6,340 bases of DNA from Treponema sp. UBA4319 (lineage in GTDB: Bacteria > Spirochaetota > Spirochaetia > Treponematales > Treponemataceae): contig DGUD01000024.1 in the NCBI GenBank assembly GCA_002393865.1, forward strand, positions 1 to 6,340. Reading direction: 5' to 3'. Every line of letters starts with the position of its first letter. The first letter of the stretch is position 1. Position numbers and translations under genes: made by a program. The notes beneath the pieces are model-generated. The model was not told where the DNA came from. It made no database searches and saw only the letters and a list, made by a program, of their open reading frames with translations. Of the stretch, positions 1-6,340 are shown one piece after another.

Positions 1-13
1 GCATCTGGTTCCG

Positions 14-81
14 GCGGAAAAACACCCGGACTGCCTGTTGCACGCTTCGCTTTGCAAATGGCAGCCCGGGCGTTTTTCCGC
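14..81. terminator. Long terminator-like hairpin, probably ending an upstream gene
   Basis: Arms 14-35 and 60-81 pair over 22 positions with only two A-C mismatches (24/71 and 30/65), which become G-U pairs when read on the minus strand. The stem begins with a run of five A (18-22) and ends with a run of five T (73-77), the usual form of a terminator that can work in both directions. The loop holds a second short stem, TTGCA (38-42) with TGCAA (53-57). A further run of six T follows at 91-96. It most likely ends a plus-strand gene lying before the window; no such gene end is visible. Confidence 0.65.
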
Positions 82-129
82 TTCCGCGCATTTTTTATGT
101 TGGATCCTTGGCTTTTGTAGCATAAAAAA

Positions 130-162
130 GAAAATCATCTTAAAACAGTTTACATGATTTTC
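130..162. promoter_or_regulatory. AT-rich dyad, possible operator
   Basis: GAAAATCAT (130-138) and ATGATTTTC (154-162) form a perfect 9-bp inverted repeat separated by 15 nt. It lies about 220 nt upstream of the cyclase. The AT-rich arms and the roughly 24-nt centre-to-centre distance would suit a dimeric DNA-binding protein, but no known operator consensus is recognised. A TAAAAT at 185-190 just downstream could be a -10 element, though no convincing -35 accompanies it. Confidence 0.25.
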
Positions 163-220
163 CAATACCGCGTCCATCTTCAGATAAAATACATCTCATG
201 CTGAAGCCCTGGCTGGCGGC

Positions 221-337
221 CACGGAAATCAACGAACCTTGGCGCAGTAACATGGTAGGCGGCAAATTCGATTGCATTGAACCGTTTAGAAGTAAATCAT
301 ACCCCGCTGCTCTGCGGCGAGGTTCGTGATTTCCGTG
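221..337. repeat. 26-bp imperfect inverted repeat with 64-nt loop upstream of the cyclase
   Basis: Left arm 221-247 and right arm 312-337 pair with 24 Watson-Crick pairs, one G-U pair (240/319), one G-G mismatch (242/317) and one bulged A (231). The loop is 248-311. The arms are too long and too well matched to be chance. There is no U-tract after the right arm, so it is not an ordinary terminator. It ends 6 nt before the -35 of the cyclase promoter. It could be a structured RNA, a regulatory dyad, a small invertible segment or a degenerate mobile-repeat unit; the sequence alone does not decide. Confidence 0.6.
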
Positions 338-343
338 CTCCCC

Positions 344-372
344 TTGCTACTCTGCGGGCAATATGGGATAAT
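344..372 (+). promoter_or_regulatory. Candidate sigma-70-type promoter of the cyclase gene
   Basis: TTGCTA (344-349, 4/6 to TTGACA), a 17-bp spacer and GATAAT (367-372, 5/6 to TATAAT) make a well-spaced promoter. TG at 364-365 one base before the hexamer adds an extended -10 motif. The expected transcription start, about 7 nt after the -10, falls at 379-380, on the A of the chosen ATG, which predicts a leaderless transcript. Confidence 0.55.
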
Positions 373-379
373 AGCCGGT

Positions 380-1909
380 ATGAGGGCAAAAGATTTTTTC
401 CTGAAGCATCACGTGTACCTGTACGGGCTCATCTGTCTCTTGGCGAACATCCTTGCGGTGCTCTCCTCGAACCTGTCGAGTTTTCCGATGCCGGATACGG
501 TTCCGCTCCGGCAATGGAAAGCTTTTATGGACCAGCACGGCAGTCTCATAAATACCCTGAGTATCCTCTGCTATCTGGTGCCTGTGTTCCTCTGCCTTGC
601 CTATGCGATGCAGCTGCGCAAATACCGCCATGGCGAAAAAGGCTATGCCCGGATTATGGTGCACATGCCCTGGGCTTTTGCCGTCCTGGGCATATCCGGG
701 TGGCTTTCCAATTTCCTGCTGGAGATGGCTGCCCTGCTGTATTTCAGACAGACTTTGAGGCAGGATATTTCCTTTATCCTGATTTCGTCCGTCACATCGT
801 ATATCTTTCTCTCCATTTTTTCGTTTACGTTCATCTATTTTACGCTTGAGACGCTGAACCGGAACATCGTACTTCCGGCGCTGTTCCCCGACGGAAAAAT
901 CTCGGAGATTGAGCGCACCGCCCTTTCTTCCATAAAGCGGGTCTTCCTCTTCTACTTTTTTTCCAGCGCGCTGTTCCCGACCTTCTATCTGGCAATCAGG
1001 CTCTTCTGCACAAAGCGCTACCACGTGGAAATCCCCAACTATTCGGATTTTGTCTTTACGGGCATGCTGCTCTGCATCGGGCTGGTTCTGACTTTTCTGG
1101 TTTCTTCTTATTTTCAGAAGCCGCTCCAGAAGCTGACCGACGGCGCGCGGGAAATCTCAAAGGGAAATTACGACACAAAGACCGTCATCTGCTCCAACGA
1201 TGAGATGGGCGTGCTGGGCGACACCTTCAATGAGATGACCACATCCCTGAAGGAAAAAGAATTCATGCGCGACACCTTTGGCAAAATCGTTACGCCGCAA
1301 GTGCGCGATTATCTTCTGAACGAGAACGTCTCGCTTGGCGGCGAGACGCGCGAAGTGACGGTCATGTTCTGCGACATCCGCGGATTCACGACGCTTTCGG
1401 AGAATATGCCGCCGGAAAGAATCGTCGCGCTCCTGAACGAATATTTTACCGGCCTTGAGAAATGCATCACGGCTCACGGCGGCGTCATCAACAAATATAT
1501 CGGGGACGCGGTGATGGCCTTGTTCGGGGCGCCCGTAAAGCTGGCGCAGCATGCGGACGATGCCTTTGCGGCGGCGCTTGACATGCGGAAGTCGCTTGAG
1601 GAGATGAACCGCGGCTTTGCGGCAAAGGGCTTCCCGATGCTTCGCTTTGGAATCGGAATCCACACGGGGCGCGTCCTTGCGGGGAACATCGGCGCTGCGA
1701 ACCGGATTGAATATACGGTAATCGGTGACAGCGTGAATACCGCAAGCCGCATTGAGGGGCTGTGCAAAAGCTACAAAACGGATCTGCTCATCTCCCAGTC
1801 CACGGTAGACGCCCTCAAGAAGCAGGCCGGCTTTCCTGCCATTGCCTTTGTGGACGACGCCGCAATCCGGGGAAGAACGGAGACGGTAAAGCTGTACACC
1901 GTGCGATGA
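380..1909 (+). CDS. Six-helix HAMP class III adenylyl cyclase
   Basis: A 509-residue membrane enzyme predicted to make cyclic AMP from ATP. The N-terminal ~245 residues carry about six hydrophobic segments, the last at ~223-245. A HAMP linker follows (~245-297, with KPLQKLTDGAREI and NDEMGVLGDTFNEM), then the cyclase domain (~325-508). The two metal-binding aspartates are D332 (VMFCDIRGFTT) and D376 (YIGDAVMALFG), 44 residues apart as in the family. Adenine selection uses K372 and T446; a Thr rather than Asp at the second place is typical of subclass IIIb. N453 and R457 (DSVNTASRIE) are the transition-state pair, so all catalytic residues are present. The layout resembles the mycobacterial Rv1318c-type 6TM-HAMP cyclases. 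The start was set at ATG 380; a GTG at 326 would add 18 residues but lies upstream of the predicted promoter. The stop is 37 nt from the convergent exporter's stop. The sensed signal is unknown. Confidence 0.93.
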   Translation: MRAKDFFLKHHVYLYGLICLLANILAVLSSNLSSFPMPDTVPLRQWKAFMDQHGSLINTLSILCYLVPVFLCLAYAMQLRKYRHGEKGYARIMVHMPWAFAVLGISGWLSNFLLEMAALLYFRQTLRQDISFILISSVTSYIFLSIFSFTFIYFTLETLNRNIVLPALFPDGKISEIERTALSSIKRVFLFYFFSSALFPTFYLAIRLFCTKRYHVEIPNYSDFVFTGMLLCIGLVLTFLVSSYFQKPLQKLTDGAREISKGNYDTKTVICSNDEMGVLGDTFNEMTTSLKEKEFMRDTFGKIVTPQVRDYLLNENVSLGGETREVTVMFCDIRGFTTLSENMPPERIVALLNEYFTGLEKCITAHGGVINKYIGDAVMALFGAPVKLAQHADDAFAAALDMRKSLEEMNRGFAAKGFPMLRFGIGIHTGRVLAGNIGAANRIEYTVIGDSVNTASRIEGLCKSYKTDLLISQSTVDALKKQAGFPAIAFVDDAAIRGRTETVKLYTVR

Positions 1910-1946
1910 TTCGCGCGGAAGGGAGCCATGCGTGCCCCCGCTGCCG

Positions 1947-3618
1947 CTACGCGTTCTCCGGAGCACGGGCTGCAGGGAATGCTGCGGGCGGCGTGCAGCT
2001 GACGAGCCTGCCTTTGTCCAGCACGATGACTTCGTCGTAGCGGGCAAGCGTCCGTGCGTCGGCGCGGTGGGTCACGGCCACGACGGTGGTGCCGCGCAGC
2101 CGGCTGACGGTCTCTTCGATACGCTCCGCGTTTTTGGCATCCAGCGCCGAGGTTGCCTCGTCAAGGAGCAGCAGCTGCCTGCCGTGGAGCAGGGCGCGTG
2201 CCACCGCGATGCGCTGCCGCTCGCCGCCGGAAAGCCGCGCGGCGTTTTCTTCAAGCCGCGTGTCCAGCCCTGCAGGAAGGCTTTCCACGAGCCCGCAGAG
2301 GCCGGCTTCCTCCACCGCCCGCATCACTTCGGCTTCCGGCTGGCCCGAAAACAGCGTGATGTTGTCCCGGAGCGTCCCGGAAAACAGATAGACTTCCTGC
2401 CCGACGCTCGCGCAGACCACCCGCCGCCCTGCTTCTCCGTCCACCAGAATCGCCCCCCCCGGTCGGCATGCAGTGCGCGCCGAGCACGCCCAGCAGCGTG
2501 GACTTGCCGCTGCCGCTGGCGCCGACAACGGCATAGTGCCTGCCCTTCCTGAGGCGCAGCTGTATGTGCCGCAGCCCCATGCCGCCGCCGTCGAATGCGA
2601 GCGACACGTCCCGCAGCTCAATGCTGTCCGCAAAGCCGTCCGTCATGCGCAGGCCGGGGACGCCGCTCTGCTCTGGTGCCGGGCGCGCGATTCCTTCCAT
2701 CTCCTGCAGGATTCCCCTGACCGAGCGCAGCTGTGCCAGTTTTGCGGAAAGCTGGAATGCCGGGCTGAGCGCCTGCCCCGTCAGCTGCGTGACGGCGATG
2801 ATGCTGCCCAGCGTCAGATGGCCGCGCACGGCAAGCACACCGGCAAAGCTGATGACGAAAAACTGCGCGAGTATGCCGGCGGACGCGGACAGCGCCTGTA
2901 CCAGCGCCAGTGCGGACGCAGCGCGCTCCTTTGCGTTCTCCTGGGCCGCCGCAGCCGTGCCGAATTTTGTGCGCATCCGTCCCTCCAGCTGGTAGTCCTT
3001 TACGACAAGGAAGCCGCGGAGCATGTCCTGCAGCGTTCCGTTGTACTCTGAACCCGCGCCAGCCCGCTGCTCCTGCAGGCGCGCGAGCCGTGCGCCGAAC
3101 AGCCGCGGGATGAATCCGGGCAGCGCCATGAGCGCGAGCGACACCGCCGCCACAACGGGGTTCAGCATGACCAGCATCGCCGCCGCAATGACAATACCCG
3201 CAATGCTTTCGGCGAGCGACAGCGTGTTCCTGAGGTACTGCTCTTCCACCATGTCCATGTTCTGGTTCATCAGCGCAAGGCAGGAGGCGTTCCCCCGCTG
3301 GCGGAACTGCTGCGGGTGCAGGGCAAGGATTCCCGCAAGCACGTCCTCCTTCAGGTGAAGGCAGGCATTCCGTATGCAGCGGGCCTTGCAGCGCTGGCTT
3401 ACGAGGCCCAGGGCTCCGAGCGCGGCGGCGTAGGCGGCGCAGAAAAGGAAATCCTTTGCAAGCCGCGCTTCAGTGCCGTCCTTGAGTGACAGGGAAATCT
3501 GATCGACCATCCAGTTCAGAAGGAGCGCGGCGCCGCTTGCGAGCGCGACGTACAGCATCTGGGACAGCGCATACCCGGCAAAGGGAATGCGGTTCTTGTA
3601 CAGCAGGTAGTTTCTCAT
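1947..3618 (-). pseudogene. ABC exporter (TMD-NBD half transporter), frame broken at a G8 run
   Basis: Two overlapping frames together make one ABC exporter subunit. From ATG 3618 (SD GGAGG, 5-nt spacing) the first frame encodes the membrane domain (hydrophobic segments near residues 13-37, 57-74, 133-172, 240-264 and 268-286) and the start of the ATPase with Walker A GASGSGKST at 366-374. After MPTGG (384-388), at a run of eight G, it shifts and ends at 2251 after 455 residues with nonsense sequence. The other frame carries on without loss: AILVDGE, Q-loop Q407, signature LSGGE 462-466, Walker B LLLLDE with D486/E487, and H-loop H517, ending at TAG 1947. Seven G would give an intact 556-residue protein, a normal length for the family. 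As read, the product lacks signature and Walker B and cannot hydrolyse ATP. It may be phase-variable, rescued by slippage, recently inactivated or a sequencing error. The substrate is unknown. The preceding XRE gene suggests control by that regulator. Confidence 0.85.
2453..2460 (-). repeat. G8 homopolymer at the exporter frameshift point
   Basis: Eight consecutive C on the plus strand (eight G on the coding strand) lie exactly where the two exporter frames meet, at codons 387-389. The upstream frame fits up to here and the downstream frame fits from here on. One G fewer joins them. Such runs are prone to slippage in replication, in transcription and in sequencing. Confidence 0.9.
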
Positions 3619-3668
3619 CGTATCCTCCGGTATGGCAAGCATAGCGGGAAGGGCGACCTTACGTCCAT
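3615..3668 (-). CDS. Possible 17-codon leader ORF overlapping the exporter start
   Basis: ATG 3668 opens a 17-codon frame (MDVRSPFPLCLPYRRIR) whose TGA (3617-3615) overlaps the exporter ATG (3618-3616) in an ATGA arrangement, the usual mark of translational coupling. The exporter's Shine-Dalgarno lies inside it. No Shine-Dalgarno precedes its own ATG, and so short a frame can arise by chance. If real it could be a leader peptide or, more speculatively, a signalling peptide for the neighbouring regulator and exporter. The peptide is basic at the C-terminus and shows no signal sequence. Confidence 0.15.
   Translation of the reverse strand: MDVRSPFPLCLPYRRIR
3624..3628 (-). promoter_or_regulatory. 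Shine-Dalgarno deciding the exporter start
   Basis: GGAGG on the minus strand lies 5 nt before ATG 3618 and fixes that start over the in-frame ATG at 3642, which would place the Shine-Dalgarno inside the coding region and has no such site of its own. Confidence 0.75.
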
Positions 3669-3673
3669 GCCGG
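3627..3673 (-). promoter_or_regulatory. Inverted repeat touching the exporter ribosome binding site
   Basis: On the minus strand CCGGCATGG (3673-3665) can pair with CCATACCGG (3635-3627) at 8 of 9 positions, with a 29-nt loop. The left arm contains the start codon of the 17-codon ORF and the right arm shares its last bases with GGAGG. It could reduce access to the exporter ribosome binding site, or serve as a protein-binding dyad upstream of the gene. The single mismatch and large loop make it only moderately stable. Confidence 0.3.
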
Positions 3674-3713
3674 ATGATGCGGAAAAAAATTTACGTCATT
3701 TGTTAAGAAAGCG

Positions 3714-3735
3714 CCCCGTTAGGATTCGTCCGGGG
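3714..3735 (-). terminator. Weak hairpin over the stop of the XRE gene
   Basis: On the minus strand CCCCG (3735-3731) and CGGGG (3718-3714) can pair around a 12-nt loop that includes the TAA of the regulator gene, followed by CGCTTTCTT. The stem is only 5 bp and the T-run is interrupted, so termination would be partial at best and read-through into the exporter is plausible. A clean run of seven T lies further on, at about 3685-3691 read as AAAAAAA on the plus strand. Confidence 0.25.
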
Positions 3736-4624
3736 AGGAAAGGGTCTCGGCAAATTCCTGCGCCTGCCCGGCAAGCTGCTCCCTGCCGATGAGGCGCAGG
3801 TAGGGCACGATTGCCCCGACGATGCGCCGCGCTTCCGCTTCCCTGCCGCAGGACGCGAGTGCCCTGGCCCTGGCAAACTCAAGCTCCGGCATCAGCGCAA
3901 GCTCCGCGTCGGAAAGCGCCCACGCCCGCGTTTCTTCCGCAAGCTCCAGCGCGCCCCGGCCGTTGCCTTCCGCGATAAGGTAGAAGGCAAGGTTCACCGC
4001 GGTGTTCATGCGCAGCAGCCCGTAGGAGCGCAGCTTGCTCTGCTGCCCCTTGAGCGCCTCCAGCAGCTCCCGCGCGATCAGGACAGCCCGGCTCCGCTTT
4101 CCTTCCTTGTAGTTCGCCACGGACAGGACGCTCAGGATGTTCGCCTCGGTAGACGTCAGAAGCTGCCTGCGGAAGCTGCACGGGTCAAGCCCCGGCTTGG
4201 TGCATGCGAGCGCCTGCTCAAGGACGGCGGTGGCGCCGGGGGCAGCTTCCTCCAGCATGACGGTTCCCCGCAGGAACTCGGTCACCTGCCTGCCCGCCGC
4301 GTCGTCCGCAGCATAGCCGCCGATGGTATCCAGCATGGATTTTGCATAGCGCACGTCTCCGCGCGTCAGGGCCTTTGCGGCCTCGTCCGCCAGCTCCTCA
4401 AAGCGCTGCTGGCGCTCGTTCCGGTAGTAGACGCCGCATATCTGGTAGGTGCTTGAGCCCAGCCGTTCCAGCAGCTTTTCCAGCGTGGCGCCCGACGGCA
4501 TCTGCGTGCCGTTCTCTATCCGCGAGACCGAGACGCTGGAGCAGATGCCGTCTGCGAGCGCTTCCTGCGTGAGGCGCTTTTCCTTGCGCAGCTCGCGTAT
4601 GATGCTTCCCAGTGAGTTTTCCAT
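3719..4624 (-). CDS. XRE-family transcriptional regulator with TPR-like C-terminal region
   Basis: A 301-residue protein with an N-terminal helix-turn-helix of the XRE/Cro type at residues ~5-56: LTQEALADG is the first helix of the motif and SVSVSRIENG the recognition helix, followed by the usual MPSGATLEKLLERLG. The remaining ~230 residues are predicted helical, with Ala- and Leu-rich pairs resembling tetratricopeptide repeats (for example NLAFYLIAEGNGRGALELAEE). This build matches RRNPP-like regulators (Rgg, PlcR), some of which bind short secreted peptides, and related uncharacterised XRE proteins; peptide binding here is inference. The start is ATG 4624. A longer frame from GTG 4672 would add 16 residues with no Shine-Dalgarno and no domain function. 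It lies 100 nt upstream of the exporter on the same strand and may control it and itself. No metal site or enzymatic domain is seen. Confidence 0.85.
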   Translation of the reverse strand: MENSLGSIIRELRKEKRLTQEALADGICSSVSVSRIENGTQMPSGATLEKLLERLGSSTYQICGVYYRNERQQRFEELADEAAKALTRGDVRYAKSMLDTIGGYAADDAAGRQVTEFLRGTVMLEEAAPGATAVLEQALACTKPGLDPCSFRRQLLTSTEANILSVLSVANYKEGKRSRAVLIARELLEALKGQQSKLRSYGLLRMNTAVNLAFYLIAEGNGRGALELAEETRAWALSDAELALMPELEFARARALASCGREAEARRIVGAIVPYLRLIGREQLAGQAQEFAETLSSPDES

Positions 4625-4630
4625 GTTCCC

Positions 4631-4636
4631 ATGATA
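4631..4636 (-). promoter_or_regulatory. Candidate -10 element of the XRE gene
   Basis: TATCAT on the minus strand (5/6 to TATAAT) ends 6 nt before ATG 4624, which would put the transcription start on or next to the start codon. No good -35 lies 17-18 bp upstream (TGGCAA at best). The GGGA between the hexamer and the ATG is only 2 nt from the ATG, too close to act as a normal Shine-Dalgarno. Confidence 0.35.
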
Positions 4637-4696
4637 GCGCAAATATGGCGGGATTGCCACAGCCTGCGGCACAGCTCATGCCTGGGCGGAAAATGC

Positions 4697-4723
4697 AGGC
4701 GCTCGCTCCCGGCGGGAAAGCGC
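4697..4723 (-). terminator. Terminator-like hairpin after the reactivation-domain gene
   Basis: Outer stem 4697-4702 with 4718-4723 (6 bp) and inner stem 4706-4709 with 4713-4716 (4 bp) surround a GCC triloop, with a small internal loop between them. On the minus strand it starts 34 nt after the TAA at 4758 and is followed by TGCATTTT. The stem is strong and GC-rich but the T-run is short (four, after a 3-nt gap), so termination is likely but not certain. It would separate this gene from the XRE gene. Confidence 0.5.
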
Positions 4724-4757
4724 CGCAATCCAGCTCAGGGTGCTGCGTACTCCGCGC

Positions 4758-5363
4758 TTATTCGATTCCCACGAATGCTGTCACTGATTTTTCCGGTGCC
4801 ATGATGAGCGTGTCCATGAGCGTAAGGCCGATGCGGCTGCACGGGAGCAGGGAAAAGAAAATCTTCTGCACGGCGAGCGGCACGTCGCCGTAGCCGGGGC
4901 TGTAGCGCGGGTGTGTCCTTCTGCCTTCCGCGGCGGCCTGCTGCCGGATGTGCGCGTTCAGCAGCTCCACGAAATTCTCCGTGAACATGGCGGCGGCGCC
5001 CTGCAGTACGGCAGCCTTTGCGCGGCTCTGCGCCTGGGCGCGGCGGATATATGCGTCTACCTGCGGGCCGATGGTCGCCGCGAACAGCGCCACCTGGGAG
5101 CAGCCCTCAAGGTTTTTCGTGAGGTCTGAGGACTGCACCTGCTGCCCGGCAAAGTACAGCTGGTAGTCCTGCCCTGCGGAAAGGGGGAATACGGCATACA
5201 CGGCCTGCGGCACGATGCTGCGCTGCAGCTCGGCGCAGCTGCTGTGCAGCAGCTCGGCGACTTCCCCCTGCGGGAGCGATGCGCGCGCGTAGCCAAGGTA
5301 GCGGGCAGCCTCCGCCTCGTCGCAGGGAATTTCCGGGGCTTTTTTATAGAAGAAAATTGCCAT
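4758..5363 (-). CDS. Stand-alone B12-dependent methionine synthase reactivation domain protein
   Basis: A 201-residue soluble protein that matches the AdoMet-binding activation domain of cobalamin-dependent methionine synthase (Met_synt_B12 family). In MetH this domain supplies S-adenosylmethionine to re-methylate cobalamin that has been oxidised to cob(II)alamin. The clearest marks are the AdoMet-binding motif RxxxGY at R153-Y158 (RYSPGYGD), LFAATIGP at 93-100 and the C-terminal SRIGLTLMDTLIMAPEKSVTAF. It lacks the homocysteine, folate and cobalamin domains of full MetH (about 1200 residues), so it would have to act on a separate methionine synthase or another corrinoid protein; neither is in the window. 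Stand-alone forms of the domain are known in bacteria with split or short MetH. The start ATG 5363 was chosen over a frame extending to 5402 because a TATAGT sits just before it. It is divergent from potA and co-oriented with the XRE gene. Confidence 0.85.
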   Translation of the reverse strand: MAIFFYKKAPEIPCDEAEAARYLGYARASLPQGEVAELLHSSCAELQRSIVPQAVYAVFPLSAGQDYQLYFAGQQVQSSDLTKNLEGCSQVALFAATIGPQVDAYIRRAQAQSRAKAAVLQGAAAMFTENFVELLNAHIRQQAAAEGRRTHPRYSPGYGDVPLAVQKIFFSLLPCSRIGLTLMDTLIMAPEKSVTAFVGIE

Positions 5364-5369
5364 GCTGCC

Positions 5370-5378
5370 ACTATAGCA
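5370..5378 (-). promoter_or_regulatory. Extended -10 promoter of the reactivation-domain gene
   Basis: TGC followed by TATAGT (5/6 to TATAAT) on the minus strand gives an extended -10 ending 6 nt before ATG 5363. No -35 match lies at 17-18 bp, which an extended -10 can tolerate. No Shine-Dalgarno lies between hexamer and ATG, so the transcript is predicted to be leaderless. Confidence 0.45.
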
Positions 5379-5417
5379 AAAAAGCTCATAAAAAACAGGC
5401 AATTTCCGAAAATTCTA

Positions 5418-5423
5418 TTGACA
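5418..5423 (+). promoter_or_regulatory. Perfect TTGACA -35 hexamer, partner -10 not found
   Basis: TTGACA stands 197 nt upstream of the potA start in an AT-rich stretch between the divergent genes and is the best -35 candidate for potA. No TATAAT-like hexamer is seen 15-19 nt downstream (the 17-nt position reads GAAAGT), so the promoter is unproven; an activator-dependent promoter is possible. Confidence 0.25.
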
Positions 5424-5454
5424 AATTCCTGCAATAAAGGGAAAGTGGACTAGT

Positions 5455-5601
5455 TTCAGCACTGCACCTGAGTCTGCTGAAGCATCCGGCGCTCGTCCCC
5501 GTCACCGTTGCCGCAGGGCAATCCGTGGAAGCTTGCATCCCGCACGAGGGGCGCTGTTCCCGGCAGGAAGAACGGGGCTCCCGCTCCGGAACACCATTTT
5601 T
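5455..5601 (+). promoter_or_regulatory. Structured potA leader with terminator-like last hairpin
   Basis: Three hairpins follow one another. The first is TTCAGCA (5455-5461) with TGCTGAA (5475-5481), a perfect 7-bp stem. The second is TTGCC with GGCAA around a GCAG tetraloop, extended by CAC/GTG, at about 5503-5526. The third is TGTTCCcGG (5555-5563) with CCGGAACA (5586-5593), 8 bp with one bulged C, followed by ATTTTT (5596-5601). The AGGAG of potA begins 3 nt later. This order would suit transcription attenuation or a riboswitch-like element, but no known riboswitch consensus is recognised. Confidence 0.4.
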
Positions 5602-5603
5602 AC

Positions 5604-5608
5604 AGGAG
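5604..5608 (+). promoter_or_regulatory. Shine-Dalgarno of potA
   Basis: AGGAG lies 11 nt before TTG 5620, a slightly long spacing. No ATG or GTG occurs in frame between it and the first recognisable PotA residues, so the TTG start is the best choice. Confidence 0.6.
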
Positions 5609-5619
5609 TTGTACCCAGA

Positions 5620-6340
5620 TTGAACGGAAGTACAGTTTCCATCGACCATGTCTCCAAGCACTTCGGCTCTTTCCACGCGCTTGACGACATCAATTTTACC
5701 ATCCGGCAGGGCGAATTCTTTTCGCTGCTGGGTCCGTCCGGCTGCGGCAAGACGACGCTGCTGCGTATCATCGCAGGTTTTGAATTTCCGGATGAAGGGG
5801 CAATCCTCTTTGACGGCACGGACGTTGTCCCGCTCCCCCCGAACAAACGGCAGAGCAACACGGTGTTCCAGAACTACGCGCTGTTCCCCCACCTTTCTGT
5901 ATATGACAACGTCGCGTTCCCGCTCAAGCTGCGCAAGCTTGACAAGAAAACCATCGACGAGAAAGTGCTTCATTACCTGCACCTTGTGCAGCTTGACCAG
6001 CATATCTACAAGAAGCCGAACCAGCTTTCCGGAGGGCAGCGTCAGCGGGTCGCCATCGCGCGGGCGCTCATCAACGAGCCCAAGGTGCTGCTGCTTGATG
6101 AACCGCTTTCCGCTCTGGACGCAAAGCTGCGCTCCAGCCTTCTGCTTGACCTTGACGCGCTGCACGACAAAATCGGCATCACGTTCATCTTTGTGACGCA
6201 TGACCAGAGCGAGGCGCTTGCGGTAAGCGACCGCATCGCCGTCATGAATTCCGGGCATGTGCTGCAGGTCGGCACCCCGTTTGAGATTTACGAGAGCCCT
6301 GCCACGCAGTTCGTCGCCCAGTTCATCGGCGACACGAACC
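5620..6340 (+). CDS. potA: PotA, ATPase of the spermidine/putrescine ABC importer (3' end cut by the window)
   Basis: The first 240 residues of the ATP-binding subunit that powers polyamine uptake with PotB, PotC and PotD, acting on the inner face of the cytoplasmic membrane. All ATPase motifs are present: Walker [10 protein letters not shown] 38-46, Q-loop Q84 in [10 protein letters not shown], signature LSGGQ 136-140, Walker B LLLLDE with D160/E161, and H-loop H194 in FVTHD. The stretches [18 protein letters not shown]-like [16 protein letters not shown] and TPFEIYESP are characteristic of PotA rather than other importers, though iron or sugar ATPases of the same subfamily are related. The C-terminal TOBE-type regulatory domain lies beyond the window, as would potB, potC and potD if they follow. 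The start is a TTG (residues [16 protein letters not shown]); the upstream frame is open but has no family resemblance. A structured leader precedes it. Confidence 0.92.

Follow-up and report, generated by a model that had tools for sequence, protein, structure and literature searches.

A G8 tract splits an ABC exporter gene in Treponema sp. UBA4319 and probably marks a slip allele

The window analyzed here is the whole of one 6,340-nucleotide contig of Treponema sp. UBA4319, whose genome (G000) is a 2.76-Mb draft metagenome assembly of 225 contigs, estimated at 84% complete. On the minus strand of the window lies an ABC exporter gene in two reading frames, preceded by a gene for an XRE-type regulator. 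The other genes encode a HAMP/guanylate-cyclase protein, a protein that matches a methionine-synthase activation domain, and the beginning of a PotA-like ATPase (Table 1).

Table 1. Features of the window and, on other contigs of the same genome, poly-G tracts of the putative lipoprotein family (positions with an L label are those of the named locus)
Feature	Position	Strand	Basis
Treponema sp. UBA4319 contig DGUD01000024.1 (C6), whole contig	1..6340		
HAMP/guanylate-cyclase protein gene	326-1909	+	ORF and domain match
Split ABC exporter gene	3642-1947	-	two frames
Upstream part of the exporter (393 aa), with membrane domain and Walker A	2464..3642	-	ORF, Pfam, P0001 alignment
G8 tract, junction of both exporter frames	2453..2460	-	sequence, ORF extents
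Truncated 463-aa frame: its out-of-frame end, including the stop	2251..2452	-	ORF
Downstream exporter piece, 167 aa and stop: what we take to be Q-loop, signature, Walker B and H-loop	1947..2450	-	ORF, Pfam, P0001 alignment
XRE-type regulator gene, upstream of the exporter on the same strand	3719..4624	-	domain match
Gene with methionine-synthase activation domain match	5402-4758	-	domain match
PotA-like ATPase gene, start only	5533-6339	+	domain match
Putative lipoprotein member, G9 in frame	L103 384-392 (C116)		
Putative lipoprotein member, G8 out of frame	L103 2861-2868 (C116)		
Putative lipoprotein member, G9 in frame	L069 9698-9706 (C148)		
Putative lipoprotein member, G11 out of frame	L105 4125-4135 (C122)		first piece matches only at E 4.8e-4

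The exporter gene is split at a single tract of eight G (eight C on the plus strand), where its two frames meet. The upstream frame is open for the 1230 nt ahead of the tract and meets a stop 199 nt past it; the downstream frame is open for 182 nt ahead of the tract and for 503 nt beyond it. Codon-usage scores switch frame at the same place, and the Pfam matches part there as well – ABC_membrane and positions 1-32 of ABC_tran lie before the tract and ABC_tran positions 61-137 after it. These frame calls are based on the extents of open reading frames, which replaced a test with 180-nt windows that proved too noisy and were examined at 20 of the 48 long G tracts in the genome. The truncated frame, of 463 residues, contains the membrane part and Walker A and ends in an out-of-frame tail. 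No second lesion was seen in either half of the gene in the open reading frames, the Pfam matches, or the alignments described below.

The same exporter is present as a whole protein in the database. This homologue, P0001, is known here as a protein only (longest contig 27,258 bases) and has 564 residues from its first methionine. It is identical to the upstream piece at 391 of 393 residues (99%) and to the downstream piece at 163 of 167 (98%), with four residues, TGGA (Thr-Gly-Gly-Ala), between the regions matching the two pieces. Compared in this way, at the protein level, whole and out-of-frame alleles occur in one species. Conserved alignment columns place the tract between G374-T382 and Q415 of P0001, which we take to be Walker A and the Q-loop glutamine. 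Frames, Pfam matches, and P0001 all agree with the original prediction that one surplus G splits an otherwise undamaged exporter between these two motifs. That prediction had also put the restored product at 556 residues; the whole homologue does read through, but 556 counts from the second methionine rather than the first.

P0001 is an ABCB-like fused ABC exporter, in which PF00664 (77 bits, cut-off 28) is followed by PF00005 (85.1 bits, cut-off 25). It scores below the curated NCBIfam cut-off for the 25 of 185 families listed, which include MsbA, CydC/D, LssB, bacteriocin, multidrug, and other exporters. In a search against solved structures, the 60 of 588 matches listed were, judged by their names, eukaryotic ABCB and ABCC proteins, and the search did not narrow the substrate. 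We did not accept a defence-gene reading, for which PADLOC matched only parts of ATPase models (mad3, mad8) and HTH models.

Matches to the exporter at E 1e-60 or better were found in 3 of 200 genomes of the genus and 5 of 274 genomes of the family, and viral contigs yielded no exporter relative. Two of the five genomic loci are broken (G000 and G261), two are whole (G054 and G265), and one is open as far as its contig reaches (G069). Loci L007 and L008, from two related species, encode exporters that are 72-73% identical to the one studied here; that of L007 is whole and that of L008 starts off its contig. At the codons of the G8 tract both read ACC GGG GGG GAT, in which a G7 tract stands in frame. 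Because these loci share a nucleotide identity of 0.954, they amount to little more than one comparison. A further database protein, P0121, is a 215-residue fragment of an L007-like exporter that begins four codons past the Gly-Gly pair, reflecting either a broken gene or a contig end. In the comparison across relatives proposed in the original prediction, the tract is in frame in L007 and L008 and absent from the exporters of another genus (L113 in G265, L114 in G261). The exporter of G265 is whole, and that of G261 is broken by a different one-base slip – a T run immediately ahead of the signature motif has lost one base, next to an undamaged regulator gene. An XRE regulator also precedes the exporter in L007, L113, and L114, and the predicted pairing of the exporter with a likely regulator holds.

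We considered the G7 tract of the relatives as proof of a conserved switch and dropped it, since ordinary codon conservation explains it. At residues common to the exporter and its relatives, codon agreement is 0.57-0.61, so two GGG codons would remain unchanged with a probability of about 0.36 and no special selection is needed. Selection keeping the tract beyond codon conservation, as expected of a contingency locus, was accordingly not found for this exporter. On the other hand, a GGG share of 0.222 predicts the codon pair GGG GGG at about 43 of the 866 Gly-Gly pairs and 21 have it, so such pairs are not favoured in general.

The genome of Treponema sp. UBA4319 is rich in long G tracts. It contains 407 G6 runs and 45 G7 runs, and a geometric fall from these counts predicts about 5 G8 runs, 0.55 G9 runs, and 0.07 longer ones; the observed numbers are 25, 16, and 7. 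As a class, long G tracts exceed chance, but a lone G8 does not, and G8 is the shortest length in the over-represented class. Although predicted coding sequence makes up 88% of the 573 kb sampled, only 15 of the 48 tracts of at least eight G lie well inside predicted genes. Across 59 genomes of the genus, G9 runs number from 0 to 44 per genome (16 in G000). Three long tracts are in frame in genes of other kinds: a G8 in mutS (L085 9561-9568, equivalent to C217:49060-49067), which encodes 870 residues with all five MutS domains, a G8 in a gene for an SRP54-type GTPase, and a G9 in a response-regulator gene. A slip in the mutS tract would yield a mutator and could itself be reversible.

Long G tracts also border assembly gaps. 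The gap at L072 7405-7461 is bordered by G7 and G11, and that at L091 1437-1487 by G10 and G10, so that two of the G10 tracts counted above are the sides of a single gap. Tracts of the same type on both sides of two gaps would be expected if tract length were mixed in the sample. We rejected N gaps as evidence of tract variation, since only 2 of 18 sampled gaps are flanked by G tracts.

A putative lipoprotein family provides a second set of in-frame and out-of-frame tracts. A search with one member gave six matches, which represent four members in the genome. All four carry a G tract beyond the signal region, at equivalent positions (Table 1). The member with an out-of-frame G8 is whole in the database as P0241, seen as a protein, which is identical to the downstream piece at 510 of 515 residues and reads Thr-Thr-Gly-Gly-Gly-Thr at the tract site. 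Judged by these sequences, the four putative lipoproteins look like a poly-G phase-variable family, and poly-G switching very likely operates in Treponema sp. UBA4319.

With a probability of roughly 60%, we read the exporter as a real and recent slip allele of a patchily held gene – off in this genome, on in a near relative, and likely reversible. A one-letter slip is the likely cause of the switched-off state because P0001 is whole and the relatives carry G7 in frame. Replication slippage would have added one G to a seven-G tract like that of L007 and L008, and the eighth G would shift the frame, leaving a truncated product and a cell without a working exporter. That product, which would retain the membrane part and Walker A and lack the Q-loop, signature, and Walker B, is presumably inactive. 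We infer that the eighth G is real rather than an assembly error and that the gene for P0001 has seven. Given the nature of G tracts and the example of the putative lipoproteins, the tract may slip back at raised frequency, in which case the species would be a mix of ON and OFF exporter alleles.

The slip allele gains support from a comparison with other ATPase domains of the genome, among which the exporter has the sole PF00005 domain found split between frames away from an N gap or contig end. This comparison drew on 83 PF00005 rows, of which 68 cover 100 or more of the 137 positions (judged by eye) and nine weak partial rows were left out; of the cut-short domains that we looked up, those on C113 and C174 stop at N gaps and that on C137 at a contig end. 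Several observations weigh against a dedicated switch. A tract of eight G is short for a hotspot, the conservation of G7 is ordinary, the other genus lacks the tract, and the exporter of G261 is broken by a different slip. The switch proposed in the original prediction therefore stands in part: the one-base slip, the whole copy, the G7 relatives, and contingency-type genes elsewhere in the genome agree with it, but no selection on the tract beyond codon conservation was found.

The best-surviving alternative, which we consider unlikely, is that a dispensable exporter of patchy distribution is in an early stage of simple decay, with the G tract merely the place of the first hit. The small number of family genomes with a close exporter, the separate one-base break in G261, and a G7 conservation no greater than that of codons fit such decay, whereas the lack of a second lesion in either half and the near-identical whole copy P0001 do not. 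Quite improbable, in our judgment, is a sequencing or assembly miscall, or a mixed-strain consensus, under which the cells would carry an intact gene and the eighth G would be an artefact. The draft metagenome origin of the assembly and the existence of P0001 are compatible with an artefact, and the two gaps flanked by G tracts indicate that such tracts can trouble this assembly. However, the G8 and G9 tracts in the mutS, GTPase, and response-regulator genes are all in frame, which argues against general homopolymer error while leaving room for an error at the single exporter site, and the PF00005 comparison likewise turned up no second domain split away from a gap or contig end. Production of whole protein from the G8 gene, by programmed frameshifting or by slippage in the transcript, is highly improbable: a homopolymer does lie at the frame junction and a GTG in the downstream frame, 8 nt past the run, might start a fragment, but that fragment would lack Walker A, the relatives need no shift, and the need for a +1 shift, with the -1 frame stopping 126 nt on, argues against programmed -1 frameshifting.

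The slip allele resembles known contingency loci in some respects. As in HmbR/HpuAB of Neisseria meningitidis and the Campylobacter phasome, the G tract lies within the reading frame, whole and frameshifted alleles exist, and the same pattern recurs in other genes of the genome (PMC3786947, PMC6321876). Unlike those loci, the exporter tract is only 7-8 long, sits late in the gene, and is known here from sequence alone. Position within a frame is one of the two placements, with promoters, that define homopolymers of poly-G contingency loci.

The original prediction had drawn a parallel with Treponema pallidum, which holds for the likeness of the G tracts. In that organism of the same genus name, tprL promoter tracts of 7 to 11 G are reported to vary within isolates, and tract length altered promoter activity in an Escherichia coli reporter (PMC7864442). 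The parallel fails for position, as the tpr tracts studied lie in promoters and change transcription (PMC7864442), whereas the exporter tract lies in coding sequence, 1182 nt inside the gene. Homopolymer inactivation hotspots offer a likeness in that a frameshift at a short homopolymer turns a gene off; the survey that describes them, covering 99 genomes, reports poly-G as generally under-represented in coding genes and stresses poly-A/T near the 5' end, in contrast to the poly-G tract here (PMC2831843). Within the literature searched, Treponema, rumen, and phase variation together led to one paper, which, judged by title and abstract opening, deals with a Mycoplasma.

G-tract phase variation is best known from pathogens. 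Here its signs – the tract excess, in-frame and out-of-frame paralogues, and whole and broken pairs of exporter and lipoprotein – appear in an uncultured, likely commensal Treponema. A broader proposal remains tentative and on balance doubtful: that the exporter belongs to a poly-G switch set of this likely rumen organism, selected for ON and OFF states that are set within its ATPase domain, together with lipoproteins that switch and a mutS gene whose G8 could tune the slip rate. If G-tract phase variation in this organism were confirmed, exporters and surface proteins in gut spirochaetes would need to be regarded as switchable, and some genes that draft genomes like this one show as broken would merely be OFF.

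G9 tracts lie near gene ends at L091 3614-3622 and 4944-4952 (C30) and at L072 10921-10929 (C162). The genes concerned are radical-SAM, MptE-like, and glycosyltransferase-like, and phase variation of such gene classes is known from elsewhere. Among the 48 tracts of at least eight G (in L069-L108 and the 6,340-nt contig), TAT or TAC follows 16, and this context does not rank with the eight commonest found after runs of G4-G6. Several of the long tracts are flanked by TATA-like palindromes.
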